This document shows positions 1 through 60,996 of a stretch of 64,000 nt of DNA, piece after piece. The translations under genes were made by a program, and so were the position numbers. Where the stretch lies: assembly GCF_027921745.1 (NCBI RefSeq), contig NC_079239.1, forward strand, positions 1,205,501 to 1,269,500, in the 5' to 3' direction. This DNA is from Schizosaccharomyces osmophilus (lineage: Eukaryota; Ascomycota; Schizosaccharomycetes; Schizosaccharomycetales; Schizosaccharomycetaceae). The first letter of the stretch is position 1; every line of letters begins with the position of its first letter. The notes under the pieces were generated by a model. That model was given only the letters and a program-made list of their open reading frames with translations, searched no databases and was not told where the DNA came from.

Positions 1-54
1 TTAGTGTAATCTAATCTGTTCTTTAATAACTGTGTTACTTTTCTGCACATACAC

Positions 55-86
<32 letters not shown>

Positions 87-594
87 TCTATATTTATATC
101 TATATCTAATATACATGCATGCAAGTATGGATGTCTGTCAGCAATGCAAAGCAAAGCGAAAGAAAGAGATTAAAATAAAACACTCTGCATATGATTTTAT
201 AAATTTTAGCATAAAAAGCAAACGATAAATTCATAGTAGCAACCGCAAACTACACATCCGTCGAACGAAAACAATCAGTAATGCTAAAGCGAGCTAAATT
301 AGCTAAATGAAATAAAAAAAAAAAATCTCAGAAAATATATATATATATATATATATATATCATTAATCGCTCGTATCAAAAATAGCTCAATATGGGGGAA
401 GGAATTGATAGCAGAGAAAAGTAGGAGATATGAATATATATATATTAATAACTAGCTTGTCAGGGAAACGAGCGGATGCTTGGTTGGACATGGGACATGA
501 CAATCATACTATGTAGTATGTAGTATGTAGTAAACGTTACAAACATTCAACAAAAGCATGAAAAAAATTTAGGTAGACAAGTAATCAATCAAGA
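1..594. other. Gene-free AT-rich flank with simple repeats
   Basis: No coding region can be supported. The stretch holds an (ACATAT)n-like tract near 46-86, a (TA)n run near 337-360, and three tandem copies of a GTAGTAT-type heptamer near 513-533. It lies upstream of a tRNA-Arg gene. Confidence 0.7.
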
Positions 595-667
595 GGCCTC
601 GTGGCCCAATGGTCAAGGCGCCTGACTACGGATCAGGAGATTCCAGGTTCGACTCCTGGCGGGGTCA
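595..667 (+). tRNA. tRNA-Arg (ACG)
   Basis: A 73-nt cloverleaf including discriminator A. The seven-pair acceptor stem (GGCCTCG with CGGGGTC) is intact with G-U wobbles. The anticodon loop is CTACGGA, giving ACG, and the T stem CCAGG/CCTGG closes TTCGACT. A T-rich tract suited to RNA polymerase III termination follows. An identical gene body lies on the opposite strand at 17668-17740. Confidence 0.95.
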
Positions 668-2200
668 ATTTCTTTTTGCTTTTTTTTGCTTTCTTTTCTT
701 TTCTTGTTTCATTCCATTTTGTTTTGCTTTTCTTTACCCTTCTATTAGCTAAATGAATAAGTTCGTTCTAAAACATGCAACAGCGAAACGGAATATGAAA
801 ACAATAGATAACAACCGCCCCGTGAGTGTACGTTCATCTTCTTTTCTAGTCTCATATAGTCATCGTACACCTCGGGATGTTGCGCAAAACATCTCATGAC
901 CATTTGTAAATTTCCATATATATAATATAATAATATAATCTTGTGCAGCTTCTTGTCCTTGAGAAACACACATAATCTTCCTGAGGGAACTAAGGAATGT
1001 CTGGTTTGGCGAGGCGGTTCAGTTTGTTCGTGTTATAGATCATAACATGAATTCATTGGACTCGTAAGTTCCTTCTCAATGTAAGAAACCGATCATTTCG
1101 TTACTTTCCATGTGTACAATTTATGATCAAACCTGATTCTGTGAAGTTATGTAGACTCGTCATGGATTTCCTCACACTTCTTAAGGACGATTTATACAAT
1201 ATTTACATGATATTTGTAAGCTTATTAAAAGGGTCAATGAAATGAACAAGTGGAAAGAAAAAATAAAACACAAATATTGAAATGTTTAAGAGAAAGTAAG
1301 AAATTTCCAAAAATCCGCATGAGTATGTCTGAATGACAGATAGAAAAAGTTTCGAATCTAATACGAATCATTTTGATTTACACTCGCCATTATCTTGCAT
1401 GTACGTACGCCCTATACTGTTCTGAAGTACGAAATACGAAATACGAAATACAGTGAGTGGAATTTACAAATCATATGAGGATCATATGAACAATCAAATA
1501 TTTAAATATTCACAAATTTTTCAAACGGATAATTGAACTATTGAGTAGGACTCATAGTGTATTCTATTGCCAAGTGTCATTAATTTCGTAAACGACATCA
1601 GGCTTTTTTATCGTATTGAACGATAGCTGAATTGATTACAATTTTTATTTTGTTTTGACTTAGCTGGTAAAACTGTCTCATTTGAATTGATCCCCGAGTT
1701 GTTAAGCGAAGAATCATTCAGGCTCAATTGATTCTAGCTGGTATGCAATTATTGTTAGTCATGTTGTCATAAAGAGTTGTTGTCTTTACACAGTGCGAAC
1801 ACTACAATAACAAAAAAAAAAAAAAAAAAATTAGCTCACTTATAAAATTTTATTGTGTAAATTTTTTTAAATAAACTTATATAATGAAAAGCTGTAACCA
1901 AATTAATAACTATACGAGTAGTCAACTGGTTAGAATAAGGTTATAGAAAAATATTCTCAATATAACGTGCCATTAATTAATCGTCGAAATTTTTTGTAGT
2001 TTAAAAGCTAGTGGAGGAAGACATACGCTATAAGTGATGCTTAGTAGTAAATTCATCTTTTTAAAAACGTAACTAACCTCGGTTATTTTGCACTTATTGT
2101 GGGACCTGTTCGTTTGTTTTTTACCGAAATATAGTTAGAAGTTCGATTTAATCGTTCGTAGCACGGCCATGGGCGTGAAGTTGATAGCACTCGATACTTT

Positions 2201-2258
2201 GATACGATACGATACGATACGATACGATACGATACGATACGATACAATACAATACAAT
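2201..2258. repeat. (GATAC)n pentanucleotide microsatellite
   Basis: About nine perfect GATAC units run on into AATAC units. The short open frame across it is only an artefact of the repeat. Confidence 0.9.
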
Positions 2259-2392
2259 CAAGCCCACCCACCTACCCACCTGTCAAGTCATTTCTATAGC
2301 TAATTGATTGTTTGCATGATAACGAATTTTAAGAACCTTATGTTTTCTTTTAAGCATGTGGGCATGTGGGATTATGGAAGAAAAGACAGTAC

Positions 2393-2499
2393 AGTGTATA
2401 TAGTGTATATAGTGTATATAGTGTATATAGTGTATATAGTGTATATAGTGTATATAGTGTATATAGTGTATATAGTGTATATAGTGTATATAGTGTATA
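2393..2499. repeat. 9-bp tandem array, unit AGTGTATAT, about 12 copies
   Basis: An almost perfect array of a 9-bp unit. Because 9 is divisible by three it stays open in some frames and would encode a Val-Tyr-Ile repeat, but there is no gene context. Near-perfect copies suggest recent expansion. Confidence 0.9.
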
Positions 2500-2681
2500 A
2501 GAGATGGAAAGTTATGGAATTTTAGTTATGATGGAGAGAAAGGGGGAAGCCGTTCAAGCTTTCCATTCTTCTTTTGCGCAAAAAAAAAAAAAAATTTAAA
2601 CTTACCTCCGTATTTTTCCCCTCTCCTCCCCTCTTCTGACTCTCCTCACGTGAAAATAAAATAAAAAAAAAAGTGAGAGGG

Positions 2682-2800
2682 AGCCTACAGCACCCCGGAT
2701 TCCCATGTTGTCTCCAACCATAGTACTAACGAGGCCCTCAGACGCTTAACTGCAGTGATCGGACGGGAACTGGTGTTTTCGCCTAGGTATGGCCGTAGAC
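2682..2800 (-). rRNA. 5S ribosomal RNA
   Basis: The reverse complement begins GTCTACGGCCATACC and ends GGTGCTGTAGGCT, the standard 119-nt eukaryotic 5S molecule, with the internal box A/C region present. It is transcribed leftwards into an A/T-rich run. A second copy lies at 55709-55827 on the same strand, as expected of dispersed single 5S genes in fission yeasts. Confidence 0.96.
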
Positions 2801-2935
2801 AACTCTGTATCTTTTTTAAGCTATCTATACTATTCATAAGTTACTTTAATAGTATACGGGGTTTGTGTTACACATACGTTTGTCATTGAATTGAATTGAA
2901 TTGAATCCAAACAAAGTAATACGAAATGGCGTTCA
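2801..2935 (-). repeat. 5S upstream flank, duplicated at 55828-55955
   Basis: About 130 bp upstream of the 5S gene is nearly identical to the flank of the second 5S copy. It includes a TATA-like AGTATAGATAG about 30 bp before the start and an ATTGA microsatellite that differs by one unit. The TATA-like element fits the known need for upstream TATA in fission-yeast RNA polymerase III genes. The rest may reflect recent duplication or conversion. Confidence 0.8.
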
Positions 2936-2964
2936 TCTTCCTTCATCATAAGAATGATGAAATA

Positions 2965-2999
<35 letters not shown>

Positions 3000-3332
3000 A
3001 ATGAAAATTGCATATCAGCATGATTTCCCGTCAAATGATTGATATTTTGGTAAAGACGAGATTTTTAATTTGTGAATTTATTTAATTACTCGTCAGGTAT
3101 GGAGTCAGGTCAGTAAAGGGAATAACTTTTCGCTCCAATATTATTTTAAATTTAAATAACCATAACAAACATCAGTACATACATATATATATATATATTG
3201 AGGTAATAACCATTTTTCATGAGCGAATGCATTTGAGAGGTATCATTCACTGGCAGACAGCGCTTTATTTGCAGCAAATAGATAACATTGATACTGTCTA
3301 TCTATACATACAAAACCACCATGATTGTAATA

Positions 3333-3406
3333 GGGCATGTGGTGTAGATGGTTATCACGCTTCCTTAGCATGGAAGAGGTCCCAGATTCGAGTTCTGGCT
3401 TGTCCA
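3333..3406 (+). tRNA. tRNA-Ala (AGC)
   Basis: The anticodon loop TTAGCAT gives AGC. The acceptor stem carries G3-U70, the classic alanine identity pair, and discriminator A. The T stem is CCAGA/TCTGG around TTCGAGT. One U-U mismatch at pair 6-67 and AT-richer stems than usual leave slight doubt whether it is fully active. Confidence 0.88.
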
Positions 3407-5370
3407 AATTTTTTCTTGGTTTTCATTAATAAATAATCACCCAGCCGGTCTCGGAAATATCTACGTGCAAAACATATTACGCTAAAGAAAAAAAATGGTC
3501 GCTATTCATAGGAAATTTCTAAAAGCCTCCTCATAAATAAGCTTTCCATGTTGATTATCAGGCAACCTAAATGTCAACATCAGTGGACCACAAACCTAAA
3601 AGGAACTTCTGCTAGTATGTTAGCAATCAATGCTTTACATAAATTCTGCAAACAAACCATTGATTCTAGACAAGGTCTGTTTTTTGTCAATGCTCCACTT
3701 AATAATTTCTGTTTGGTATTGAAACACTTTTTAACAAGCAAAACTACTATTTATCATACAACGACAACGACAATGCCTATGGCAATGGCAATGGTAGTAT
3801 AAAGTTATATGCTTGAAGATCCATACAGTATATTCAAGTCGTAAATGTGAAAGCAGCATAATACCGTCTGCGGATTTGCAACAGAAATTTTTATTTAGTA
3901 ATTTCTTCTCATTTCTATATTCGTTTTTTGTACAGTTCCACGAATGCCGGTTCCAGTTGATCCATTTATTACATAAAAGCTTTTACTCTTTCAATTTTTA
4001 ATTGGAAGCTGATCATTCGGTTGAAATAATAAAGATTATGTTTCCAATTTCGAAGTACTTTCTATATCTTTATTCGCTTTTCGTATGTATTTTCGGGTAA
4101 TTGAGTGAGTTGCAAATCCTTAATATCTGCATATTCCAATCAACGGATATAGATAATCTAAATATTCTAGTGCGGCACCTATTGCCTTTATCTTTGAGAG
4201 CGTCCAGAAAAGTAGTGCTACGACATGGCTATACGATCAATTTGGTTCTGACCGTCCTCATTTGTGGGTGAGATTGTGGTATATTGTGTCGCAAGCCAGT
4301 CTTCAGCTGTAAAAAATTGCATGTTTTGTTGGAATAATTCAATAAACGATTGTTTTGGGTATGGGGATTAACGTTCTTATGGTCTCCCTTGATATAAAAT
4401 GCTTTCTACCTGACCGCTATACAAAGCTGGAATATTCATATAATAGATTTAGTTAGCCTAAAGAAACTTGTTTACTTCATTAAACCGATTATGTACCAAT
4501 TCTTGCAACACATTTTTTGATATTTTATGCGAGTAATCTTAATTGCTGAAAGCTCTCTCCTTAACAAAAGTATCATTTCAACTCTGAGAAACACTGGGGT
4601 TTCTCCCATTTCAAATGCTTTTCTCTGGTATTTGGGATAGACAGGAAAAACTAATACTATAATGGCAGTCATATAAAGATTTGGTCTATCAAAGGAGCTA
4701 AAAGAAAAGTCAAATACAAGGAAAAACAATCTTTTCTTGCAATAATTAGCCAAAGAATATTTTGTGCTTTAGTGCGTAAACATAGCAATATTAATTATAT
4801 TAAGGTGTAGAATATATCGTGCTGTTAAACTTACAATCACAATATAATAACATGTATCATTTTATTTTGAATATATATAGTAATAATACACTGCAGCTGT
4901 TCGCAGTGCACAGAAGAACACTAAAATATGTTATAATATGTTTATAACAATACATAAAATGGATCAAATCAATGATGAGTGAACGGTCATTCTATTACTG
5001 GCTCTCTGTCCTCTTCTTTCTCCCCATTTGTATTTGCTAAAGGTAATAAGCAGTACGGCAGGTGTGAAAAGGTAATTGAAGTAATGTACGAGATGGAACT
5101 CGTTTGAATATGCGATTCGCTGTTGATTGGCGATCTCAGGGTAGGATGTACTGCACCGAAATGAATTGACAAGATTACAATAAAAATACATACTCTGCTA
5201 TTGGAACTGTCTAACATCATTTTATAAAATAGCGCTTCGATGGCAATGTGAATTTACAAAATCATTAACAAGCTACCAAGGTTCTACACCGTTTTTGCAA
5301 ATTGATTATTTAATAGTTATGACAAAAAAGGATATAGATATAATATTATAACGCAAGGTCTTTTAACAAA
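3407..5370. other. Gene-poor interval with only weak small ORFs
   Basis: Three small open frames are seen and none is recognised. One (3548-3802, +, 84 codons) ends in a CAATGG repeat. One (4472-4753, -) begins at a non-ATG codon. One (4987-5220, -, 77 codons) begins with ATG and has a hydrophobic N-terminal stretch like a signal peptide. Base composition is as AT-rich as the surrounding non-coding DNA. No splice-linked extension could be traced. Confidence 0.5.
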
Positions 5371-5441
5371 TCTTCCTTAGTATAGGGGTAGTACACCAGC
5401 CTGTCACGCTGGCAGCCCGGGTTCGAATCCCGGAGGGAGAG
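5371..5441 (+). tRNA. tRNA-Asp (GTC)
   Basis: The acceptor stem TCTTCCT/AGGGAGA is complete with discriminator G. The anticodon loop gives GTC between CCAGC and GCTGG stems. The T arm is CCGGG/CCCGG around TTCGAAT. A T-run typical of RNA polymerase III termination follows at once. Confidence 0.95.
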
Positions 5442-5809
5442 TGATTCTTTTTTTGTGAATTTTTAATTTTTTGTTTTTTTTTTCGTTTTTTCGTTTTTTC
5501 CTCATACTTGGGTTCTTCCTTGCATTTGAGAACGCCATTCGATTTTGCGTTTCTAATACTGTTTTGTACATGGCTTTCTTCATCTTTGGCTGTTCACTCA
5601 GAGTCATATTCATTAAGTGAAAGTAGATGATGATGATGCATGCTATCAGGTGAAATGAGACAAAAAATTGCTAGTAAACTGACACTAAGCAAACTAAATG
5701 AAACCATCAACAATGAATAGGATAATAGCATAGATGTAGAAAAAAAATAAACATTCATCATCCATTGGATGGTTCAAAAAAAAAGAAAAGTTGAAAAAAG
5801 TGAAGGCTA
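5442..5809. other. Spacer between tRNA-Asp and tRNA-Val
   Basis: T-rich downstream of tRNA-Asp with several TTTTTCG runs, then A-rich upstream of position 5810. No gene is seen. Confidence 0.6.
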
Positions 5810-5892
5810 TGACCGTGCCAAGACTCGAACTTGGGACCGTCTGCGAACATTAAATGTTAAGCAGAAATTATAACCATCTAAACCACACGGCC
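5810..5892 (-). tRNA. tRNA-Val (AAC) with a 9-nt intron
   Basis: The reverse complement starts GGCCGTG and pairs with CACGGTC plus discriminator A. The anticodon stem TCTGC/GCAGA encloses 16 nt rather than 7, so a 9-nt intron lies just 3' of anticodon AAC. A second gene at 41367-41449 (+) has the same mature sequence and differs by one base in the intron. The intron plus anticodon loop is nearly palindromic. Confidence 0.93.
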
Positions 5893-6298
5893 TTCGTTGA
5901 AGTAGATTCTACTTCTGTTTATATTAAGCAAGTTGCTCATAATTACGCCTACATTAGAAGACAATGGTCGATGATATGATAACTGCCATCTTTACAGCTG
6001 GGTTCGAGCAAAGTATGTCTTAGCTTTTTTAAAAAAGCTACCAATAAACATCTCATGTGATCCTTACAAAACAAATATAACAAATAAATAAACCCAAGTC
6101 ATGAAGTAGACCGTTTATTGTCATTATAAATAAGAATATTTTATTTTATCCACTTCTATTGCGACAAATCCACTCACAATTAAAGACCACTGATTCTTTG
6201 TGACTATGTCAGTCATTAATATAAATTACTATATGTTATATATATAAAACAAGGTATTAGGCTAACACTTGACTAAAACTAAATTAAATATGAAAAAA
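5893..6298. other. 3' flank of the permease gene
   Basis: AT-rich sequence between tRNA-Val and the permease stop codon. No gene is seen. This is where the tRNA/5S domain gives way to ordinary coding DNA. Confidence 0.6.
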
Positions 6299-8026
6299 TT
6301 AACAAATACTATGCAGAACTTGTTTTACACGTCCTTTGGCATCCTTAGGCTTTTCATCATCCAAAAGATCCTCAAAAGTATGCAAGCCTGTATCCAAATC
6401 GATGTCATTTAAAGATCGAATATAACTTCTGTCATAAATCTTGTAACCGATAAAAAAGGTGATGACCACGATAGCTGCCAAGTAACCTTGGAAAAAGCTA
6501 CTTGCGTTAGGCTTACCGCCGATAGGAAAAAGTGATACATAAAATTGAGCAATTAAACATAAAATGTTGAAGCCCAAACCGATACATGAGCCCCAGATAC
6601 CCATAGGGGACACAAAACCAAGAGTATCCAAAGAACGACCTTGCTTTTTCATAGCAAGTCTAAAGATAATATGGCACAAGTTAATACTACCCCAAGAAAA
6701 GAAGCTCGAAAGACCAGAGATAGAAAGCAACCAATTGAATACGGTAGTACTTTTATCTTTGGCTTCATTAATATAAGCCAAGAATCCAAAAGAGAGGACC
6801 ACAATCATGGCCATTAAAGGACGACCCAATCGATCGGTATAAGAAAAGAAGGAAGGCGCATTCTTGTTAATAGCAAGGGCGTGCAAGGTACGGCTTGCGA
6901 TATAAGTACAAGAATTGGCGACTGAAATAACGGAAATAATAATAACGGCATTAAACACAGAAGGAAGTCCTTTAATTCCAGCTTCTCTGATAGCAAGCAC
7001 GAATGGAGAAACACTGGCACCACTGCTGTTATTCATCAATTCAGGGTCATCAGGACTAACCAATAAACTAACCATAAGCAAACCGACAACATAGAAAATG
7101 GCAATACGCCAGAAAACTTGGCGTGTAGCGTGGGGTAAGGACTTTCTCGGGTTTTCAGCCTCAGCAGCTGCTAGACCGACAGCTTCGGTACCTGAAAACG
7201 AAAAAGCGGCTGTGGTAAACACAGAACAAAAGCCTTTGAAGCTGTGTCGGAAGGGTTGATGTGAAATAATTTTACCACCGATATAACCTCTGTCATCGGT
7301 AGGTACACCACCACAGTTGATAATGATTGCCAAAATAATGAATCCGGTAGTAGCAATCACCTTAACTGTCGACAAGACAAACTCGACTTCACCATAACCT
7401 TTAATACCAAACAGATTGACAAAAATAATTAAGACTAGAAAAATACTAATCCAAGCAGCACTATTAATTTCCGTCCAATATTTAAAAGTGATAGCGCAAG
7501 TGGTTAATTCTAAAGGAAAAGTGACAAAATAATTAAAAAAATAGTTCCAACCGCAAGCGAAGCCCCAACCAGGGTCGATAAAACGCATGCAATATGTGTA
7601 AAAGCCACCGGCTAGCGGATAAGCGACAGCCAATTCACCTAAAGCGTAGACCGTACAAAACATCATGATACCAATCAAGGTATAATTAATAATGACCGAA
7701 GCAGGCCCACCAGTAGCAAGGGAACTACCAGAACCTACGAAAAGACCTGTACCAATGGCACCACCAATGGCAATCATTTGCATGTGTCGTCCTTTCAGGC
7801 TTCTTTTCAAGCCGACACCGTCATCTCTGACAGATGTTGCAGGTTTAAAATCGTTGATAATGCCTCGGAAAAACCCTTCCTTCTCTGGTTCCAATTCATA
7901 AAGTTCTCCTTCAGCGCTGGTATCTGAGGGACCTAGATCGACCTTCTTTTCATCTTTTGCCTCTTCATAATTCGTTTTGTTGGGAGGGTATTTTTCGAGA
8001 TTGTTTTCGTTAATAGAAGTCGACAT
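6299..8026 (-). CDS. per1: Amino acid permease, APC/YAT family (Per1-like)
   Basis: 575 residues, single exon, ATG at 8026. It imports amino acids across the plasma membrane by proton symport. The hydrophilic N-terminus (about 80 residues, acidic) is followed by the family signature GGAIGTGLFVGSG at the first membrane helix and about 12 hydrophobic segments. A conserved GTEAVGLAAAEAENPRKS loop lies near the middle, and a charged cytosolic tail ends in a cysteine like those palmitoylated in other YAT permeases. The length is normal for the family. It is the first protein gene next to the tRNA/5S-rich left end. From memory, S. pombe per1 sits in the same place beside rpl10 and lys1 near cen1. 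Substrate specificity cannot be read from the sequence. Confidence 0.93.
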   Translation of the reverse strand: MSTSINENNLEKYPPNKTNYEEAKDEKKVDLGPSDTSAEGELYELEPEKEGFFRGIINDFKPATSVRDDGVGLKRSLKGRHMQMIAIGGAIGTGLFVGSGSSLATGGPASVIINYTLIGIMMFCTVYALGELAVAYPLAGGFYTYCMRFIDPGWGFACGWNYFFNYFVTFPLELTTCAITFKYWTEINSAAWISIFLVLIIFVNLFGIKGYGEVEFVLSTVKVIATTGFIILAIIINCGGVPTDDRGYIGGKIISHQPFRHSFKGFCSVFTTAAFSFSGTEAVGLAAAEAENPRKSLPHATRQVFWRIAIFYVVGLLMVSLLVSPDDPELMNNSSGASVSPFVLAIREAGIKGLPSVFNAVIIISVISVANSCTYIASRTLHALAINKNAPSFFSYTDRLGRPLMAMIVVLSFGFLAYINEAKDKSTTVFNWLLSISGLSSFFSWGSINLCHIIFRLAMKKQGRSLDTLGFVSPMGIWGSCIGLGFNILCLIAQFYVSLFPIGGKPNASSFFQGYLAAIVVITFFIGYKIYDRSYIRSLNDIDLDTGLHTFEDLLDDEKPKDAKGRVKQVLHSIC

Positions 8027-9583: not shown

Positions 9584-10249
9584 TTAAGCAAGGTTGAAGG
9601 AAGCATCAGGGAAAACCTCAAACTTCTCGTCAAGTCTACCACGCTTGTTCAAGAACTTAGCGTAGCAGCCATCAGGAATGACTTCACCGCGGCTACGCTT
9701 CTCAATGAATTCAGAACGGTTGTATTGAGAGAAACCCCACTTCTTGGAAACAATGATTTTTTGTTGACCAGGGAACTTGTATTGGCAACGACGGAGGGCT
9801 TCAATAGCAGTAGTACGGTTGGAGTCCTTGGTACGGATAGACATCAAGACTTGACCAATTCTCACACGGGCAACCAAACCGTTGGGTTTACCGAAAGCGT
9901 GACGCATACCTTGTTGCAATCTATCGGCACCGGCACAAGAAAGCATCTTGTTGATACGGACAACGTGGTAGGGGTGAGCACGGACACGGAGGTGGAAAGC
10001 ATCCTTACCAGCGATCTTCACCAAGTACTTGTTGGTGGTAATACGAGCAGCTTCGAGAGCTTCGGAGGTGATTTGTTCCAACTCGTTAGAAACCAAGTGA
10101 ATGCACAAGGGGAACTCGTCAACAGTGGCACGCTTACGGCCCAAGTCAAAGATTCTGATCTTGGGATCAGGAACAGCACGGTTGTAACGAGACTTGGGAT
10201 AAGGCTTGTTCTTAATATAACGGTAGCAACGTGCGGGTCTACGGGCCAT
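9584..10249 (-). CDS. rpl10: 60S ribosomal protein uL16 (L10/QM)
   Basis: 221 residues, exactly the family length, beginning [21 protein letters not shown] longer in-frame reading upstream has no ATG and is not used. uL16 sits at the base of the P stalk near the peptidyl-transferase centre and joins the 60S subunit late in cytoplasmic maturation. The loop around residues 100-115 ([13 protein letters not shown]) is intact. Codon use is strongly biased, as expected for a highly expressed gene. HomolE- and HomolD-like boxes lie just upstream at 10298-10343. It is divergent to lys1. By position it corresponds to S. pombe rpl1002, recalled rather than shown. Confidence 0.97.
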
Positions 10250-10824: not shown

Positions 10825-13800
10825 ATGAGCCAGAAGGCTCTAACAACGGAAGAATATGCTCAGCGCCTTGAGCGCTGGTCGGAAAGATTAAAAAATCAAA
10901 CTATTTCTCACCTCCCTGCGGATTATAGCCGCCCCGTTCCTTCCAGGCTAGTGGAAGCTGTTTCCGAAAAGGTTCTAAACGATGAAACCAAGGCTGCATT
11001 GATCAGTATTTATGCTACCGCCCAGACAAAGGGAATTAACGCTACTCCTTTCAATATTTTGCTGACGTTGTTTATCGTCCTTGTAATTCGGTTGACCGGT
11101 GACGAAGACATTAGCATTGGAACTAGTTCAGAGAATGCTATTCCTTTTGTTTTACGGACATTTGCTCAACAAAATGAGTCCTTCTTTGGACTTTTAGAAA
11201 AGGTTGCAGATATTGAGAGCACATGTTCTGCTGACGCTGTAGATTTTACCGATCTGATAAATCATTTAAATAGCAAACTATCGAAACAGGATGAAATTCG
11301 CAAAAGTCTTGCGCATATACGTTTCTACAACGCACCAGATACGCCATCCGAAAGCTTCTTGTCTTCAACCAGCTTAGATGTCGATCTGACTGTTTTAGTT
11401 TCCCTCAAGAAACCTGCGGAAGAACTTTCTTCTTTGCGTTCTTTCACTTTTCCTGATCTACAACTCAAAGTTATTTACAACCAACTTGTTTTCTCCCAAA
11501 ACAGAATTAATATTCTTGCCGATCAGCTTTTCCAACTTGTTATATCTGCCTCCCAAAACATCAATGGCTCCATTGGTTCCTTGGATTTAAAGACGGATTC
11601 TCAAAATCGCGTTTTACCAGATCCTACAATAGATCTTGATTGGTCTGGTTTCCGTGGCCCTATCCAAGATATTTTTGCTCATAACGCTGCTAAATTTCCC
11701 GAAAGGGAGTGCATTGTAGTAACACCTTCGGTGACGGAGAACGCTTCAGCTACTTCTTATACATATCGCCAAATCGACGAATCTTCCAATATACTTGCTC
11801 ACCATCTTGTTCAAAGTGGTATAGAAAGAGGCGATGTTGTTATGGTTTATGCCTACCGTGGTGTCGATTTGGTGGTAGCCGTCATGGGTGTTCTCAAATC
11901 TGGCGCTACTTTCTCCGTTATTGACCCGGCCTACCCCCCAGCTAGACAGACTGTTTATTTGGGAGTTGCCAAACCAAGAGGTTTAGTCTTTTTGGCTGAT
12001 GCTGGTGTTGTTTCTCCTACTGTTGTTGACTATGTAAAGAAAAATTTAGATCTTAAAACGTTCGTACCCTCTTTGAAGTTGTCAAAAGAAGGCGCTTTAA
12101 CTGGTGGTTTTCTGGAAGGTAGCAACACTGATATATTATCGAGTGTTGCTCACTTAAAGAGCCAACAAACTGGAGTAGTTGTTGGGCCAGATAGCACTCC
12201 TACACTTAGTTTTACTAGTGGTAGTGAAGGTATTCCTAAGGGTGTTAAAGGACGTCATTTTAGTTTGGCTTACTATTTTGACTGGATGTCACATGAGTTT
12301 AATCTTTCGGAAAATGACAGGTTCACTATGCTTAGCGGTATTGCTCACGATCCTATTCAGAGAGATATCTTTACCCCTCTGTTCCTTGGTGCATCTCTTA
12401 TTGTACCAACGGCTGAAGACATTGGTACTCCAGGACAGCTTGCCCACTGGGCAAATAAATACCAAGTGACTGTTACCCATTTAACTCCTGCAATGGGTCA
12501 GTTACTTTCCGCTCAAGCTGAAGAACAAATTCCATCCCTCCATCATGCGTTTTTCGTGGGTGATATTCTCACTAAGCGTGATTGCCTTCGTTTACAAGTG
12601 CTTGCTACGAATGTCAATGTCGTCAACATGTATGGTACCACTGAAACACAGCGGTCTGTCTCATATTTTGTGGTTCCCGCTAGATCAAAAGATTCCACAT
12701 TCTTAGAGACTCAGAAAGAAGTCATACCGGCTGGTAAAGGTATGAAAAACGTCCAATTGCTTGTCATCAACCGTCATGATAGTAGCAAGCTTTGCGGTAT
12801 CGGAGAAGTAGGCGAAATTTATTTACGTGCTGGTGGTCTAGCAGAGGGATATCTTGGCAATGAGGAAATGACGTCCAAAAAGTTCTTGCAGAGTTGGTTC
12901 GCTGATCCCTCTAAATTTGTCGATCGCACTCCTGAAGATGCTCCATGGAAAAAATATTGGTTGGGTATTAGAGACCGCATGTATCGTTCTGGTGATTTGG
13001 GACGTTACCTTCCATCCGGTGACGTTGAATGTAGTGGTCGTGCTGATGACCAAGTCAAAATTCGTGGTTTTCGAATTGAACTAGGTGAAATAAATACCCA
13101 TCTTTCTCGCCATCCTAATGTGCGTGAGAATATTACACTTATTCGCCGTAACAAAGATGAAGAGCCTACCTTGGTTTCTTATATTGTTCCTCAAGACATG
13201 GATAAAGATGATTACGCTAGTGGTACCGACACAGACGATTTAGTGGTTCAAGGTCTTCGAAAGTATAGAAAGGTTATTAAAAACATCCGAGAGTACATGA
13301 AGACCAAGCTTCCTAACTATGCAGTTCCCACTGTTATCGTTCCATTAAATCGTATGCCATTAAATCCTAATGGCAAAATAGATAAGCCTGCTTTACCTTT
13401 CCCTGATACGTCTCAATTGGCAGCAGCTTCTATTTCTCGTACTAAGAATGCAAGCACAGAGGCCCTCACCACTGTTGAGCAAGAAATGAAAGATATCTGG
13501 CAAAGTATTATTCCTCATGCTGTCGGTTTAAGTAAGAAAGCTAATTTCTTTGACGTTGGAGGGCATTCAATTTTGGCTACTCGTCTCATTTTCGAGTTAA
13601 GGAAGAGATATGCCGTAAATGTTCCTTTGGGGTTGATTTTTCGTGAACCTACAATTGAAGGATTGGCTAGAGAGATTGGTAAACTCAAATCTGGAGAAAT
13701 GGTTGACCTGTATGATGTTCCTAAGGGAGAACCTGAAGATAAGGAAGTTGCTTATGGCAAGGATGCAGTTCAACTTACAAATGTACTTCCTCAGTCATAT

Positions 13801-15087
13801 CCTACGTTCTCTGGATTGAAGGTTGATGACTGCAAGACAGTATTATTGACTGGTGCCAATGGATACTTGGGTGTGTTTATTCTTCGTGATTTGATGACAC
13901 GTAATTCAAATATTAAGGTTATGGCCTTAATTCGTGCATCTTCCCCAGACCATGGTTTGCAGCGTCTCAGGGATAGTAGTATTGCTTACGGTGTTTGGGA
14001 CGAGAAGTGGATTGAGTCAATATCTGTTGTTAATGGAGACCTTGCATTAGAAAATTGGGGACTTGCCAACGAACAGTGGAACAGCTTATGTGAGGAAGTA
14101 GATGTCGTTATACATAATGGTGCTTTAGTACACTGGGTCTATCCTTATTCCAAACTTAAGGGACCTAACGTTATGGGTACAATCACTGCTCTAAAGTTAT
14201 GTTCTTTTGGTAAGCCGAAATCGTTAGGATTTGTATCCTCAACATCTACTATCGATACAGAATATTATGTTAATCTTTCCAATGAGATTACATCTAAGGG
14301 TGGTAATGGTATCCCCGAGTCGGATTCTCTTTCTGGTTCAGCTGAGAGTTTACAAACCGGTTACGGTCAAAGTAAATGGGTTGCCGAATACTTGATTAAA
14401 CAAGCCGGTTTGCGTGGTTTGAGAGGAGTTATTGTCCGCCCAGGTTACATTTTGGGTGATTCAAAAACTGGAGCTATTAATACTGATGACTTTCTGGTTC
14501 GAATGATGAAGGGTAGCATTGAGTTGGGTCTCTATCCCAACATTAACAATACAGTGAACATGGTTCCTACAGATCATGTTGCACGTGTAACGACAGCTTC
14601 TGCATTCCACCCAGGTGAAGGAGTCACTGTTGCCCACGTTACTAGTCATCCTCGTCTTCGATTCAATCAATTTTTGGCAACATTAAGTAAATTCGGGTTT
14701 GGTACAAAGCAATCGGAATATCTAAGTTGGCGAATTGCTTTGGAAAAATATGTCGTTCATGAATCTCACGACAGCGCGTTGTATCCTTTGCTGCATTTTG
14801 TTCTTGATAATCTCCCAGCCAACACGAAGGCACCTGACTTGGATGATGCCAACGCTCGTGAGATCTTAAAGCGTGATACAGAATGGACCAAGGTTGATGT
14901 ATCCGCTGGAGCTGCTGTACTTGAACGAGAAATGGGACTTTATTTATCTTACCTTGTTTCCATTGGGTTTTTAGCGAAGCCTACTCATAAAGCTGAGAAG
15001 GAGCTACCAAAGATAGAGTTAAATACTTTAACTATGGAAAAGCTTGCCAGCGTCGGGGGACGTGGCGGCGCTCCTGTTACTAAGTAA
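10825..15087 (+). CDS. lys1: L-2-aminoadipate reductase, large subunit
   Basis: 1420 residues starting MSQKALTTEEYAQRLERW; S. pombe Lys1 is about the same length. It reduces alpha-aminoadipate to the semialdehyde in fungal lysine synthesis, using ATP and NADPH, after its carrier serine is phosphopantetheinylated. Domains: an N-terminal condensation-like region; an adenylation domain with SFTSGSEGIPKG at about residue 462 and YRSGDLGRY near 718; a carrier motif DVGGHS with the attachment serine at 915; and a C-terminal thioester-reductase Rossmann domain starting at GANGYLG (about 1005) with the catalytic GYGQSK near 1180. There is no intron or truncation. An in-frame GTG 63 bp upstream is not used. 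S. pombe lys1 is a classic cen1-linked marker. Confidence 0.97.
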   Translation: MSQKALTTEEYAQRLERWSERLKNQTISHLPADYSRPVPSRLVEAVSEKVLNDETKAALISIYATAQTKGINATPFNILLTLFIVLVIRLTGDEDISIGTSSENAIPFVLRTFAQQNESFFGLLEKVADIESTCSADAVDFTDLINHLNSKLSKQDEIRKSLAHIRFYNAPDTPSESFLSSTSLDVDLTVLVSLKKPAEELSSLRSFTFPDLQLKVIYNQLVFSQNRINILADQLFQLVISASQNINGSIGSLDLKTDSQNRVLPDPTIDLDWSGFRGPIQDIFAHNAAKFPERECIVVTPSVTENASATSYTYRQIDESSNILAHHLVQSGIERGDVVMVYAYRGVDLVVAVMGVLKSGATFSVIDPAYPPARQTVYLGVAKPRGLVFLADAGVVSPTVVDYVKKNLDLKTFVPSLKLSKEGALTGGFLEGSNTDILSSVAHLKSQQTGVVVGPDSTPTLSFTSGSEGIPKGVKGRHFSLAYYFDWMSHEFNLSENDRFTMLSGIAHDPIQRDIFTPLFLGASLIVPTAEDIGTPGQLAHWANKYQVTVTHLTPAMGQLLSAQAEEQIPSLHHAFFVGDILTKRDCLRLQVLATNVNVVNMYGTTETQRSVSYFVVPARSKDSTFLETQKEVIPAGKGMKNVQLLVINRHDSSKLCGIGEVGEIYLRAGGLAEGYLGNEEMTSKKFLQSWFADPSKFVDRTPEDAPWKKYWLGIRDRMYRSGDLGRYLPSGDVECSGRADDQVKIRGFRIELGEINTHLSRHPNVRENITLIRRNKDEEPTLVSYIVPQDMDKDDYASGTDTDDLVVQGLRKYRKVIKNIREYMKTKLPNYAVPTVIVPLNRMPLNPNGKIDKPALPFPDTSQLAAASISRTKNASTEALTTVEQEMKDIWQSIIPHAVGLSKKANFFDVGGHSILATRLIFELRKRYAVNVPLGLIFREPTIEGLAREIGKLKSGEMVDLYDVPKGEPEDKEVAYGKDAVQLTNVLPQSYPTFSGLKVDDCKTVLLTGANGYLGVFILRDLMTRNSNIKVMALIRASSPDHGLQRLRDSSIAYGVWDEKWIESISVVNGDLALENWGLANEQWNSLCEEVDVVIHNGALVHWVYPYSKLKGPNVMGTITALKLCSFGKPKSLGFVSSTSTIDTEYYVNLSNEITSKGGNGIPESDSLSGSAESLQTGYGQSKWVAEYLIKQAGLRGLRGVIVRPGYILGDSKTGAINTDDFLVRMMKGSIELGLYPNINNTVNMVPTDHVARVTTASAFHPGEGVTVAHVTSHPRLRFNQFLATLSKFGFGTKQSEYLSWRIALEKYVVHESHDSALYPLLHFVLDNLPANTKAPDLDDANAREILKRDTEWTKVDVSAGAAVLEREMGLYLSYLVSIGFLAKPTHKAEKELPKIELNTLTMEKLASVGGRGGAPVTK

Positions 15088-17367: not shown

Positions 17368-17667
17368 ACTTTTCTTTCCTTATGGCTTACAGCATTGGAA
17401 TCTCTGACGTAAAGAACAGTTTATAGTGAAAGGAAAAATTTATACCAAAATTCTATGTACAAGATCCATGGAAAAGTTGTCATTTCATAATCTTTGGTCA
17501 GCAATCAAGCAACACTCACAGCCAAGTCGGCGTTGTGATTAATCACATATTAGAGGCTAATAGACGTCTTAAAGGGTACAAAATTAGAAGGAGGTCCTGA
17601 AGGGCCCCTATTTAATTAGTTTTCAGTGTATACTGTTAATTTTAAGAGCATAGGATAAGAAAAAAAT

Positions 17668-17740
17668 TGACCCCGCCAGGAGTCGAACCTGGAATCTCCT
17701 GATCCGTAGTCAGGCGCCTTGACCATTGGGCCACGAGGCC
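17668..17740 (-). tRNA. tRNA-Arg (ACG), second copy
   Basis: The gene body is identical to the tRNA-Arg at 595-667 but on the opposite strand. All stems are intact and an A/T-rich run follows. It sits in the 1.3 kb between prm1 and gua2. Confidence 0.95.
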
Positions 17741-18630
17741 TTTGTTGAAAGTAATAGGCTTAAAGTTTTATTTCAAGAGTTGAACTTTGGAAGTAAACGA
17801 TTTAAAATTCAATTTTGTTGAACGTATCGAAATATTGGTGAAATCGTTGAACAAAATTGAACCAGCTTCGACATTTGACTTGCTAAAAACACAAGATGAG
17901 TGACAGGAATGGCAGCAAGAAAGACCATTCAACTACCAAAAGAGATATTTAAGACAAACAATGTAGTGAGTATTAATTATTCCGTAAAGTATGCATATAA
18001 GCACTATGCAATCGTTACTTGCTTAGGAATCAAGTACAGAAAGGCAAGCACGTTATAAAATCGACTAGGAAGTTTTGACTTGGTTCATCATCCAAAGGGA
18101 AGAAAACAAGTGAGCTCAACTTCATGGATGAAGTTATCTTCAAATGAAACGTAATAAAGAGATTTGAGATAATACTATCATTAAAGACCAGCCTTGATAA
18201 CTATTCTTGAATGATATCCGTGAAGAGCTATTATTTGAAAATACATAGGGGCCAAATTTGCTGAAGGAAACGAAAAGAAAACATTTATTTGATATTTATA
18301 ATTTTTATGGAAATAGTTTGTTTATATGCGAATGCTCGCTAAATCAGGTTTGTGATTTAAACTTATTACAGACGGCTTAAATTGACTAGATTTCGTTTGG
18401 GCGTGTTATCGGATTTAAAAAAAGTTGCATTCTTTGTTCCAATTTTATTTTAGCGTAGATGATAATTCTATAAATATAAACAAGAGCGGTCGCTTCAACT
18501 TGGCATCTTACCTATACTTTCTCTGGGCAATTTTTTTTTTTTTTTTTTGAACATTTAACATAATCCCAATTTAAGGACTCTATTTTGGAAAACACCCTCT
18601 TTCGATTATTTTTTTGAAGTTTCTTTCACC
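17741..18630. other. Upstream region of gua2
   Basis: 890 bp without a gene. Contains a second perfect TR-box-like TTCTTTGTTC at 18430-18439, a TATA-like TATAAATATAAACA near 18471, and an 18-nt T-run just before the gua2 leader. Confidence 0.55.
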
Positions 18631-31521: not shown

Positions 31522-34500
31522 TTATGTTAGCGAATTATCCTCGTCTTCAGCATCCTGATATGCCTCATAATCATCTGTCGAAATAGTATCATTCCTGCGG
31601 TGATGTCCAACACGGGGAACAGTTCCCTTTTCATTCGTTTCTCTCTCTTCTGTTATCCTAGGACCAGTTGATGGCAAAATAACATCACTAGTATCTCCTA
31701 GTTTTTTTGGCAATTCGCTTGAGACTTTATCATACGCATCGTATGGTTGAGACGGATCAATCCCCTTTTCAGTGGGACCAATCTTTTCTTCAGCGTGATC
31801 AAACCCGAAAAGATTCGTGGTTGATGGTAAATCTACATCGGTACTACTATGATTATCCTCCTGTGACTCGCTTGAGGCATTATGTACTATATCCGTAAGA
31901 GAAGAACCCGTTTCTTTCTCTTCAGCATGACCGGCTTCATCGTGGGTTATAGATGGTGGAACATTACTGTTTTTCATAGCGTCTAGCGAATCACTCGAGG
32001 CATTACGCGCCATATTCATTAACGAAGGGCCCGTTTCTTCCTCTTCAGCATGACCGGCTTCATCGTCGGTTATAGATGGTGGAGCATTACTGTTTTTCAT
32101 AGCGTCTAGCGAATCACTCGAGGCATTACGCGCCATATCCGTAAGAGAAGAACCCGTTTCTTTCTCTTCAGCATGACCGGCTTCATCGTCGGTTATAGAT
32201 GATGGAGCATTACTGTTTTTCATAGCGTCTAGCGAATCACTTGAGACATTACGCGCCATATCCATTAACGAAGGGCCCGTTTCTTCCTTTTCAGCATGAC
32301 CGGCTTCATCGTCGGTTATATATGGTGGAGCATTACTGTTTTTCATAGCGTCCCGCGACTCACTTGAGACACCATCATACGTCGTATCCACTTGGGAAAA
32401 ATTTGGGATTCCAGAATGAGCATTAGTGGGTAAGCTTTTAGCATTGTAATCTCGCTTTTCATCTTCTGTAGATATAGACTTCTCCGTATTATTGAAGGCA
32501 CCTTTCCATAAGAGTTTCCGATTCTGCTCATCTTGCACCAATCGACGACGTTCAATTTCTTCAACACCACCAATCTTTCGTAATCTATCGTCATTAATAA
32601 AATCTTGAATTTCTTTTTCAAACTCGTCCTCGTGTAAGAGAACCTTCTTTCGTTGAAAAGCTTCAAACCGTTCAATAGCCTGAAGTCTGACATCGCTATC
32701 TGGTCTCAATTTTAAAACATCCGTGTGAATCTGTTCACGAATTCCTTTGATGTCCCCTGAAGCAGGCTTCACAGCTAAAGGCTTGCTTTTAATTCCAGAT
32801 TTTGCTTGAAGCTGGGCAATAGCAGAAACATTTGATAAAACAGTTGTAACCGAATCAAAATCTTTATTTAAATCCGCTACAAGGCTCGTATGATTATCCA
32901 AAAACTCTTGTTCTTGCACAATCGCATTCAACTCTTTTTCCCATTGCTTTTTCCATGTTGGTGTTACTTCTTCGATCGACTTTTGCAACGAACGTATATT
33001 ATTCTCAATGAATTCTTTTTCCTTGTTTAAATAAGAAGTCTGATCCAAACCTGGGCGGACTTTTCGAAGTAAAACGTCAGACCTTAAGAGCTCAATTTGA
33101 TCATTAATATCATCAAACCTTTTAACTAAAGATTTAGCGGCAGCTTCAATGGAATCTTTGCTTCTCAGGATGTATCCACGATCAAACCCAAATCCAGAGG
33201 CTTTTCTGTTAATTATATTCATTTGGTTTCTAAAGTCGTTAAGTTGCAAAGGGATCTTCGCGAAAGATGTAGCAAAAACTTGCTTCAAAGAAGCTAGCTC
33301 CAGTTGCATGGACTTGACTTTCTGATAATTGGTAGAATCGGTCACAAGTCTGCCGCGTTTGGAGTCTTTAATAGGAGACGAAAGCTGAAATGGAACATTC
33401 GTAGTATGCTTATTGCCTAATTTCCTTTCTATATTTATTAAACGTTGAAGCAATTCCTGAAATAATGGGGGACTCTCTATTTCTTCGTTTGGAGGTTCTT
33501 CATGGGATCGAGCGGTTTCAACCATCGCTTTAGCACCATTAGCCGGTGATTCTTCTTTGGTTTTCAGTTGTTCTTTCTGAGCTACTACCAATGATTTAGG
33601 TTTCATATCCGAATAGTCTTCCAATAAATAATTCACCTTGGTATCGTAATCTTCAATATAAAATTCAAAGGAGAAATCTATAAACTCATTCCCAAACTTA
33701 GATTGAAAAAGGGCTTCTAACTTCTCCTGCGTATCAACTACTGAAGACGAAACCACTTTATAGGTTTTATTGTTGAACTTTAAATAATAAACGAAACTCC
33801 CGTGATTTCGCTCAAATTCCCTGACGTCTTCTTGCTTGTGCAAGGATTCGTCGTTTTTGTCAGTAAATTCTCGATTGTCTATAGGACGTCTCTCCTCCTT
33901 TGGCATTTCTGAGCGATCATTTGCGACTTCCATATTACCAGAAGGGAGCGGCCGTTCATCAACAGGAGGATATTCGTTTTCATTCTTTTCTTCGTTGATG
34001 GGCGCCTTGGCGCCGCCACCATCTATGTTCAAATTGTTGTTGGTTTTGACCAAACGATCTAATTCTTCAAGTGAATCATGTTTAAACCCTTCGGATATTT
34101 CATTGCTTGATGCTTTAACGTTTAGATCGGCAAATGGATGTTTTGTCTCAGCATCTTCTTCATTCAGGTAATCCCGAGTTTCTCTATTTAGTTTACTTAA
34201 CGTTGAATTCGCACCCATAGGTTGTTGAGGCAAAGAAACCATTTCTATAGTATTGACCTGAGATACTTTGTTCTCTTGTAAACTTTGTGGATCCCGATTA
34301 TGCGTTTCCTCAAGAGACTCAACTGCCCGTGAAGGCGTTTTTATTTCCTGTGGAGTTTCAGATTTTGATTCCAAAGCTGAAGATGCTTCATTTGGAATTG
34401 GGGAAGTGAATGAACGACTTCTAGGTAGTAACACTGGTGTACTAGAGGGTACATATTTGGGAGAAGTAGTTTTATTGGAAGAAAAAGATCTCGTTCCGGA

Positions 34501-40942: not shown

Positions 40943-41366
40943 TTGAATATATTAATGCTCTACAGAATTCAGACGTAAGTAAGCTTTGAAAAAGATTCAA
41001 GTAACGCAGATTCTACGTTTTTGGGAAATAGCAATTTGAAAAGACGTAAATGAAGCAGACTCAAAAATGTATAATTTCTTAAACCACCTTTGAAATAATA
41101 TGATTAGGCAGCTTTGAAAGGCTTCAAAGGTAGTGAGTGTCCTAGCTACCTTACTCGCAAAGTACTATGAGGGTGTTTGCAGATGTGAATACCTTAGAAA
41201 CCAACTCATAGAAAGCCACAAGGCCAAATAGTGATTACCTGTAATCTTCAATCTTTAAAATCAATATTTTTAGGTAAAACAATCCCTATCGTGTAATATC
41301 GCTAGCTGAATATTTTACATTTTTATAATTGATATATATTTTTTATTATCCTTTCGTAGTAACGAA
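40943..41366. other. Spacer between ppk3 start and tRNA-Val
   Basis: 424 bp without a gene. Contains the ppk3 promoter and a TATATATTTTTTATTAT stretch 20-40 bp before the tRNA, in the position of the upstream TATA used by fission-yeast tRNA genes. Confidence 0.55.
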
Positions 41367-41449
41367 GGCCGTGTGGTTTAGATGGTTATAATTTCTGCTT
41401 AACATTAAATGTTCGCAGACGGTCCCAAGTTCGAGTCTTGGCACGGTCA
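41367..41449 (+). tRNA. tRNA-Val (AAC) with a 9-nt intron, second copy
   Basis: The mature sequence is the same as the tRNA-Val at 5810-5892 (-). The intron differs at one base (TTAAA versus TTTAA). The acceptor stem GGCCGTG/CACGGTC and discriminator A are complete. A GAAGGC/GCCTTC inverted pair flanks both copies, and a T9 terminator follows. Confidence 0.94.
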
Positions 41450-41768
41450 TAGCCTTCGTTTTTTTTTTAAGGTTGTACCCGAATGGAAGGTTATATTCGA
41501 GCAATTTATTAAATTTATTTATTAATCGAATTGCACGAAAAGAGAGGTATGTTTTGTAACTGTCGTAGCCATGTTTATACGTTGTATGATTGTATGGCTA
41601 CCAAACTTATTGAGCCAAACCTGTCGATTCTCCTATGCTCGGCTTCTATAGCTTTCTAAATTAAGTTCAGTAATTCATCCTTTTGCCTTTTTCTCTTTAA
41701 ATTCCTGCATCTTCCGTTGCTTAGAAATTGTAATACTCTTTTGTATCATTATAGTACAATTTTCGAAT
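41450..41768. other. Spacer between tRNA-Val and the LTR pair
   Basis: About 320 bp of AT-rich DNA, with the terminator of the tRNA gene at its left end. No gene is seen. Confidence 0.55.
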
Positions 41769-42524
41769 TGTCATAACTGGTATACGATATTACTAATATC
41801 TTGATAATATTATTGTATAAAAATAAGGATTCGTGAATGTAATGAATAAACAAAGAAAATACTATTAGACAAAGACTTTGTTACAAATTATAAAAAATGC
41901 AAATTACCTGGCAAATCTCCAGATTGGAAGATTTGACTGATCTAGCTAAATAAAATTGTTCATACAACTTACTTAGCGAATCAGATCCCTGGAAGCTATT
42001 ACTATTTTTCTATAGTACAAACGCATCCAATCTATAAGTCAAATATACAATTTTATGAATTGTTATTACTTACATCTTTTCCACTGAATACTTATTCTCA
42101 TAACAAGTGAGATTCGTCCTGTGACACTGTCATAACTGGTATACGATATTACTAATATCTTGATATTATTATTGTATAACAATAAGGATTCATGAAAGTA
42201 ATGAATAAACAAAGAAACTCTTGAAACAAAGAGTTGAAAGAAGACAAAGAAAATACTATTAGACAAAGACTTTGTTACAAATTATAAAAAATGTAAATTA
42301 CCTGGCAAATCTTCAGATTGGAAGATTTGACTGATCTAGCTAAATAAAATTGTTCATACAACTTACTTAGTGAATCAGATCCCTGGAAGCTATTACTATC
42401 TTTCTATAGTACAAACGCATCCAATCTATAAGTCAAATATACAATTTTATGAATTGTTATTACTTGCATCTTTTCCACTGAATACTTATTCTCATAACAA
42501 GTGAGATCCATCCTGTGACAGACA
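41769..42524. mobile_element. Tandem pair of retrotransposon LTRs (Tf-like, no internal region)
   Basis: Two closely related units of about 360 and 395 bp lie head to tail. Both begin TGTCATAACTGG (41769 and 42128) and end near TGTGACA. The whole pair is bounded by CGAAT on both sides (41764-41768 and 42525-42529), as in the 5-bp target duplications of fission-yeast Tf elements. No coding region lies between the units. This is an inert remnant, placed about 320 bp downstream of a tRNA gene. High similarity between units suggests moderate age. Family assignment rests on TGTCA/TGACA ends. Confidence 0.8.
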
Positions 42525-54784: not shown

Positions 54785-55708
54785 TTGTAGTATTAAGTAT
54801 TGGTGCTGTAAGTTTCACAATTTATAATATTTTTATCTTCTTATATGGAATGGAGATTCAACGCTCAGCAGAACACAATAGTTCGCCAACGCTTCCTAAC
54901 TATCAATAAAGGGAAATAAAAGAACTTTTTCACCGCCAACTATGAATGAAGAAATAGAGATAAGACTAATCCTCCTACTTTAGTTTCTTTCATCCCAAAG
55001 ACAGGGAGTTCTATCTAACCGCGGGAATCAAAATCATAGACTTACTACAACTGTTCTATTAAGTTAGGTATAAATATTTATAATTGAATTTCTTTTTTCA
55101 GATGACTGTACTTTCACTACATACGCATTTAAGTCGCCTTTATTATTCTGTTACTTGTCGAGGAACATCCCACAATAAGGGAATTGAAAAGCATGTCCAC
55201 ACATGAACCAAATTACAAAAGAAAGGATAATTAAGAGGAAAAAATATAGAAAAGTCAATAGTATTAAAGCTTCTCCCGTTGTCCCAACCGTAATACGAAC
55301 GAGATCAACTCTGCCCTACTACTAAAATTCAAACGGTTAACAAACACTTTTTCCTTCTTGACTTTTTGTGTCCTTTGTACATTTACCCTTGCTTTATTCT
55401 ACCAAATTTTCTGTTCTCATGACAATGTTTGGTTTCTCCCTTTCCCTTCGATATTTGCATCTGCATAACGTCCATTTATCCTCACGCTAGTTAGTCTCGT
55501 TTATTTATTAATTGTTTTGCAATACGAATGTTTACTCGTTTTATTTCTATTTTAGATCTTCAATAAGATATTGATTGGTGTTTCAAGAAATGCTGTGAAT
55601 GCATTGCTTCCCTTCGTATACGCTCAATTCAAGGACATGAAAGTAAAAAAAAGTACAACTATGAAATGAAACATTCTTAAGGATAAATCAAAAAGAAAAA
55701 TGAGAGGA
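54785..55708. other. Gene-free interval before the second 5S gene
   Basis: 920 bp of AT-rich DNA in which I see no coding region or structured RNA. Confidence 0.5.
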
Positions 55709-55827
55709 AGCCTACAGCACCCCGGATTCCCATGTTGTCTCCAACCATAGTACTAACGAGGCCCTCAGACGCTTAACTGCAGTGATCGGACGGGAACTGG
55801 TGTTTTCGCCTAGGTATGGCCGTAGAC
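55709..55827 (-). rRNA. 5S ribosomal RNA, second copy
   Basis: A 119-nt copy identical to 2682-2800 within the transcribed region as far as I can compare by eye. The same strand and same upstream flank are kept. Confidence 0.96.
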
Positions 55828-55955
55828 AACTCTCTATCTTTTTTAAGCTATCTATACTATTCATAAGTTACTTTAATAGTATACGGGGTTTGTGTTACAC
55901 ATACGTTTGTCATTGAATTGAATTGAATCCAAACAAAATGATACGAGACGCCGTC
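55828..55955 (-). repeat. Duplicated 5S upstream flank
   Basis: Nearly identical to 2801-2935, with the ATTGA run one unit shorter. Similarity stops abruptly at both ends of the roughly 260-bp block. Confidence 0.8.
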
Positions 55956-56624
55956 CATTCCTGCTGAATTGTTAACACCTTGAAATGTATCGAACTTCAC
56001 TTCTTGAGAAATGAATGCAGGAAATTTGACAATTAATGTGGAAACCTAATTTCGTGATTGTTATTTTGCTTGCGTTTTCGTGAGTAGACATTTTTTGTTG
56101 AACAAATAACCAAAGTACATTCAAACTTATGATTTAACATTAGGTCCGTTCAAATTTCTTTACTCACATTTACGCGATTAAAATGAAAGTTAAGTCTTTT
56201 TTTTCTTTTTATGGATTTTATGCCGACGGATTGTTTGTGTTTAGAAGACGACTTGTTTACATTTTGTCACCCCGGCAACCATTATTGTTTAATTAAAAAG
56301 TAAGCGCAGGACTTTTTACTATAAACAAAGCAACCCATTAAATTCTTTGAAGGATATTTGAGCCATTCAAACGTGTCATCACAGCCGAAAAGCTTCATTA
56401 TTCAATTGCTTTCACATTGATTCAGTAACCTCGGTTTACAACTAAGCATTTCATACCTACGCTTATTTTCCTGCATTTCCCCTTCTTGCTTAGTATTGTA
56501 TTCCTTTTGACTCGATTTCCTTCTTTTTAAATTAGTATCTTCAACTTTCGTTTACAAGGGTTTCCTTCGTCAGCTACTTCATAGAAACATTCACTGCCTT
56601 CGTTTCTAACTGCTGTTAAAAAAG
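55956..56624. other. Upstream region of pun1
   Basis: About 670 bp. A TTGTTTAC (FLEX-like core) lies near 56265. No gene is seen. Confidence 0.55.
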
Positions 56625-60498: not shown

Positions 60499-60996
60499 TT
60501 AAGGGATTACTAACTTCTGTCCCTCTGGTAATTCAAACTTGGTCTCTGAAGCTGCCCCTTGAAAGTCATCATCGGCGTTCGTAGAGTTAATGCCAAACTT
60601 TATGAACAATCCGGTCCATTTAGCTTCATCATCTTGCTCCTCGTTCATCTGGGCTTTGGCCAATGTCTTAATCCTTTGTCTTAAAGGTACTTTCTCCCAA
60701 GACAAAAAGCAATGTTCGTCGGCAGAAACAGGGACTGACAGGAATGATTCCAATGGAATAGATACGTTTTCTTCTAAAATACGAAGTTCAACTCCATCAG
60801 GCACGTCGATCGGGAGTAAAAGCACGTTTTTCTGAAATGTGAACACTTGAGATGTTCCTTCTTCTGCAAAAAGATCACTTTCTGCCAGATCGCAAACAAA
60901 TGTGTTGTCATCAAACTCTGCGGATATGCTGGAAGCAAATTGTTCGCATATACCCTTCAATTCTTCTTGTTCTACGGGCCTAAAGTTCAAAGACAT
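60499..60996 (-). CDS. Unrecognised 165-residue acidic protein
   Basis: 165 residues, ATG at 60996 (MSLNFRPVEQEELKG), single exon. I do not recognise the family. The sequence is hydrophilic and acidic, with regular beta-like segments (VFTFQKNVLLLPIDVP, VELRILEENVSIPL), a conserved-looking SWEKVPLRQRIKTLAKAQ and a soluble tail. There is no signal peptide or membrane segment. Codon use and the compact frame look real. It sits between ain1 and the Na+/H+ exchanger. Both neighbours are on the same strand, with 200 bp from the exchanger stop codon. Confidence 0.72.
   Translation of the reverse strand: MSLNFRPVEQEELKGICEQFASSISAEFDDNTFVCDLAESDLFAEEGTSQVFTFQKNVLLLPIDVPDGVELRILEENVSIPLESFLSVPVSADEHCFLSWEKVPLRQRIKTLAKAQMNEEQDDEAKWTGLFIKFGINSTNADDDFQGAASETKFELPEGQKLVIP

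Follow-up and report, generated by a model that had tools for sequence, protein, structure and literature searches.

Pol III genes, coding content and repeats at the left end of the window

The window, by which we mean the whole 64,000-nt stretch of Schizosaccharomyces osmophilus DNA analysed here, opens with a strip (1-6298) in which five Pol III genes of different kinds, four for tRNAs and one for 5S rRNA, lie within 5.3 kb. From left to right, these are tRNA-Arg(ACG) at 595-667 on the forward strand (Rfam 61.4 bits), the 5S rRNA gene at 2682-2800 on the reverse strand (108.7 bits), tRNA-Ala(AGC) at 3333-3406 on the forward strand (54.6 bits), tRNA-Asp(GTC) at 5371-5441 on the forward strand (62.6 bits), and tRNA-Val(AAC), with a 9-nt intron, at 5810-5892 on the reverse strand (48.4 bits). 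The tRNA genes were typed with intron-aware ARAGORN; run without the intron search, the program mistyped tRNA-Val as Ser and its second copy, at 41367-41449, as Leu. At the gathering score, Rfam listed three of the five Pol III genes, and a laxer run listed all five, each of them above the gathering score. Over 1-8000, the lax search returned nine matches, the five genes plus four below the gathering score that we read as chance. All five Pol III genes named in the original prediction, each of a different kind, are thus recovered intact by ARAGORN and Rfam, and the fifth is indeed tRNA-Val once ARAGORN allows introns.

The genes also carry most of the expected signals. A TATA motif starts at -29 to -32 in four of the five (5S, -29; Ala, -30; Asp, -32; Val, -31), against a background of 0.14 for a 16-nt stretch of the strip, and none was found at -36 to -24 of tRNA-Arg. 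Counted over the entire window, a TATA at -36 to -24 is present in 8 of 10 Pol III genes. All five genes have a T run at most 40 nt downstream (longest run, 6-10 T), and among the four tRNA genes the A-box pattern is present in every one and the B-box pattern in three, being absent in tRNA-Ala.

Protein genes are not detected in the strip by ORF, codon or Pfam scans, in agreement with the earlier view that these 6.3 kb hold no convincing one. There is no ATG-initiated ORF of at least 150 aa in 1-6298, and the longest stop-to-stop stretch, of 116 aa, spans tRNA-Ala. In six-frame codon scoring, 2 of 205 stretches of the strip exceeded a score of 5, both overlapping tRNA genes, compared with 80-98% of the stretches of per1, lys1 and the UBR gene, which were themselves in the training set. 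Since regions of spliced genes reach this score in only 7-17% of their stretches, a small spliced gene in 1-6298 may have been missed. A Pfam search of 10 of the 68 stop-to-stop stretches of at least 40 aa gave weak matches in three, none reaching the curated cut-off.

Tandem repeats were annotated with TRF and include a GATAC microsatellite of 11 copies at 2201-2255 and a AGTGTATAT repeat of about 12 copies at 2393-2499. Six of the eight non-coding tandem arrays of the window fall inside the strip, which makes up 21% of the non-coding bases (P = 0.0015, with approximate non-coding lengths and with a coding array at 31.9 kb left out), so the dense microsatellites that had been pointed out are over-represented here. 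Non-coding GC content is slightly lower in the strip than in the other non-coding DNA (0.315 vs 0.334). Elsewhere in the window, the open frame with the Bud6/Aip3 domain holds four tandem 123-bp units (41 codons) at 31871-32368.

Arm genes beside the strip and the position of a probable centromere edge

The strip is directly followed by the first gene of the arm, an amino-acid permease gene at 6299-8026 on the reverse strand, which matches Pfam AA_permease with 496 bits and is named per1 from its position. Next come rpl10 (uL16), at 9584-10249 on the reverse strand, recognized by Pfam, and lys1 (L-aminoadipate reductase), at 10825-15087 on the forward strand, which is named from its position and from the order of its AMP-binding, PP-binding and NAD_binding_4 domains. 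This is the gene succession per1-rpl10-lys1 that had been predicted. Beyond lys1 lie a frame without a Pfam match and then genes for GMP synthase, PI31 and cytidylyltransferase domain proteins. Farther along the arm, the Pfam matches are to domains of thymidylate synthase with flavoprotein, eL42, Bud6/Aip3 and a UBR-box E3, and the last-listed proteins have kelch, SUR7 and alpha-actinin domains. The best solved-structure matches of uL16 (8eug_I) and eL42 are both to chains of 8eug, which we take to be an S. pombe structure, a result that agrees with the genus. The genes of the window presumably keep the order and strands that they have in S. pombe on the left-arm side of cen1 (SPAP7G5, SPAC15E1, SPAC15A10).

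The left boundary of S. pombe centromere 1, IRC1L, has per1 about 2 kb and lys1 about 10 kb outside it (PMC4450266); the original prediction had named lys1 as a cen1-linked marker. PMC10659198 places per1 about 3 kb distal to irc1L, and emc5 is reported to adjoin IRC1R of the same centromere (PMC4682641). Because per1 and lys1 are close to IRC1L in S. pombe, the window very probably opens at the ortholog of S. pombe cen1L, where arm and centromere meet, and the centromere itself would lie beyond the left end of the window.

Clusters of tRNA genes at centromere extremities are a kind of structure already known from related species. In S. octosporus and S. cryophilus, Tong et al. (2019; PMC6538654) describe them close to the extremities of every centromere, where they part heterochromatin from euchromatin; the original prediction had called the centromeres of both species rich in tRNA and 5S genes. 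As in the window, the tRNA genes described there lie between arm genes and centromere, with the same Asp-Val pair outermost, Ala inside it ('A-DV') and 5S genes nearby. The Asp-Val gap in the window is 368 bp, within the 1000-bp clustering rule of that paper, and Ala and Arg are more distant. The order published for S.oct-cen1 and S.cry-cen3 is AIR-RKL-E-T-T-L-DVAIR-RKLEF-A-DV (PMC6538654), and the window, read from the inside out as Ala, Asp-Val and per1, reproduces the end of RKLEF-A-DV. The likeness stops at the next gene inward, where the published order has RKLEF beside A-DV, with Phe by Ala, whereas the window has Arg; an inverted cluster or a species difference could explain this. Published ChIP-seq data exist for S. 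octosporus and S. cryophilus (GEO GSE112454), and the edge in the window is described here from its sequence.

For S. osmophilus itself, PMC10085805 describes centromeres that are likewise rich in tRNA and 5S genes, poor in other genes and flanked by conserved protein genes, and one of the edges would presumably match that of the window. The same paper reports a swap between centromeres, located at RIA clusters on the sides of emc5 and chk1. If per1 flanks S.oct-cen1, one would expect the swap at the AIR end and per1 at the A-DV end, a deduction made after the window had been seen. The swap is assigned to the AIR end because PMC6538654 gives the full string for S.oct-cen1 as well as for S.cry-cen3.

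Could the strip instead be an intergenic stretch of the arm like any other, with dispersed Pol III genes clustered there by chance? The 6.3-kb strip has five Pol III genes and the remaining 57.7 kb has another five. PMC10085805 gives centromeric counts of 96 tRNA genes (33%) and 13 5S genes (13%) for S. osmophilus and sizes of about 56, 57 and 72 kb for its three centromeres (1.6% of the contigs), from which the density of Pol III genes works out at about 0.025 per kb in the arms and 0.59 in the centromeres. At these densities, 0.16 genes are expected in the strip for an arm (P = 7e-7 for the observed five) and 3.7 for a centromere, where five would be nothing unusual. Five genes in the strip are also improbable at the Pol III gene rate seen beyond it (P = 2.6e-4), as is the presence of 5 of the 10 genes of the window inside its first 6.3 kb (P = 0.0015). 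In favour of chance, the five genes along the other 57.7 kb themselves exceed the published arm average (P = 0.015), and a control in which 10 genes were scattered randomly, counting any five within 5.4 kb, gave only P = 0.034. Taken alone, the Pol III cluster is moderately surprising, and it is therefore synteny that carries the argument for a centromere edge. Chance clustering in the arm is very improbable, since it has against it the synteny with the cen1 edge of S. pombe, the absence of any detected protein gene over more than 6 kb, the departure from arm density and the microsatellite excess.

We consider it likely that 1-6298 is the arm-side rim of a regional centromere at the cen1-left ortholog, with Pol III complexes serving as a barrier. 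Similarity between the strip and the rest of the window is confined to Pol III genes and their close flanks and reveals no centromeric repeat in 1-6298, which speaks against this reading, as do the random-scatter control, the slight GC difference, the Arg gene beside A-DV and the weak boundary that a tRNA pair formed in an S. pombe reporter. As a position, the predicted arm-to-centromere boundary at the left end holds up on the per1-rpl10-lys1 synteny and on the tRNA clusters at centromere extremities in sister species. The finding places the window on its chromosome, and indicates that a centromere edge can be located from sequence when conserved gene order is read together with that of the Pol III genes.

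Dispersed copies of the strip genes

Three of the five Pol III genes have near-identical copies elsewhere in the window. The 5S gene with its flanks (2656-2936) recurs in the same orientation at 55683-55958, as an arm 5S gene 53 kb away (94% over 281 bp), whereas the copies of tRNA-Val at 41361-41465 (97% over 105 bp) and tRNA-Arg at 17660-17741 (99% over 82 bp) are in the opposite orientation. The gene bodies of Arg and of 5S show no difference between copies, and those of Val differ by one intron base. The segment shared by the two 5S genes extends 136 bp upstream of the gene, a pattern that would fit exchange among dispersed 5S genes; alternatively, conservation of the promoter would explain the nearer part of this segment. 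Recombination mediated by 5S genes has been proposed for the centromeric repeats of S. osmophilus (PMC10085805). Compared with the 5S-associated centromeric repeat (FSAR, CenA), which is 0.6-4.2 kb long and common to the centromeres, what recurs around the 5S gene of the strip is 281 bp in a comparison made within the window.

Two tandem LTR-like repeats, 1 bp apart at 41769-42126 and 42128-42520, lie some 320 bp downstream of the second tRNA-Val gene. They are 97% identical over 277 bp and 96% over 90 bp, and the second carries 35 extra bases. Both start with TGTCA and end with TGACA, as PMC10085805 describes for the ends of Tcry1 and Tosmo LTRs. The pentamer CGAAT precedes the first repeat and is also found behind the second, after an extra GACA. 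With these two stretches as queries, no LTR fragments were found in 1-6298 at E 0.01.

Possible barrier function and boundary type

If the edge works as known tRNA-gene barriers do, TFIIIC/TFIIIB/Pol III complexes assembled on the five genes would interrupt the nucleosome chain, this interruption would stop H3K9 methylation spreading from putative outer repeats on the left, and per1 and lys1 would thereby stay active. Several weak barriers in series might do what one alone does poorly, so that five genes would make a sturdier edge. That the Pol III genes of the strip may act as a heterochromatin barrier is suggested by experiments in S. pombe. A centromeric tRNA gene of that species blocks heterochromatin through the full Pol III complex and in either orientation, mutations in the TATA or A-box weaken such barriers, and two non-centromeric tRNA genes were also reported to block heterochromatin (PMC2040200). 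Of these S. pombe-type barrier parts, the tRNA genes of the strip have a TATA near -30 in three of four cases (Arg lacks it) and T runs in all four. The tested S. pombe tRNA-Ala barrier, as described, sits between outer repeat and central core, whereas the genes in the window would stand at the arm edge. In a tethered-Clr4 assay, a cen1 tRNA gene pair was a weak boundary and a left-cen1 IRC fragment gave no boundary (PMC4502379).

A TFIIIC-only B-box boundary, of the mating-type IR type, was also considered. No strict B-box was found outside the tRNA genes in 1-6298, and loose matches outside them number four in 6.3 kb, compared with 0.47 per kb elsewhere in the window; with no B-box excess outside the tRNA genes, a TFIIIC-only boundary is therefore not indicated, and this candidate was ruled out. 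At position 60785, there is a strict B-box (RGTTCRANTCC) without a surrounding tRNA gene.

A centromere edge at this place does not by itself make the Pol III genes its boundary. They could be passengers, present as a supply of tRNA and 5S genes or through recombination, while another element, Pol II transcription or per1 itself forms the boundary. The near-identical copies described above would fit dispersal by recombination, and PMC4682641 describes the S. pombe IRC1 edges, which serve at cen1, as having no flanking tRNA genes. On the other side, Tong et al. propose that the tRNA clusters at centromere edges act as boundaries (PMC6538654), and the S. pombe tRNA genes discussed above do block heterochromatin. 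We regard the passenger role as unlikely, and a barrier formed by the Pol III genes remains the reading that we prefer.

The edge shares its adjacent arm genes, per1 and lys1, with the left edge of S. pombe cen1 (IRC1L), in a genus where tRNA barriers are known. Because the IRC1 edges of S. pombe are without flanking tRNA genes, unlike the edge in the window, the same edge seems to be marked in different ways in the two species. More tentatively, the type of boundary could have changed at a fixed per1 address, from or to the IRC inverted repeat of S. pombe on the one hand and five Pol III genes, one of them for 5S, on the other; exchange of 5S and tRNA copies with the arm could then reshuffle the edge, as with Arg by A-DV. 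This is possible, though we hold it to be doubtful. If the boundary type does differ from that of S. pombe, the two loci would form a clean pair for studying the evolutionary turnover of heterochromatin boundaries.
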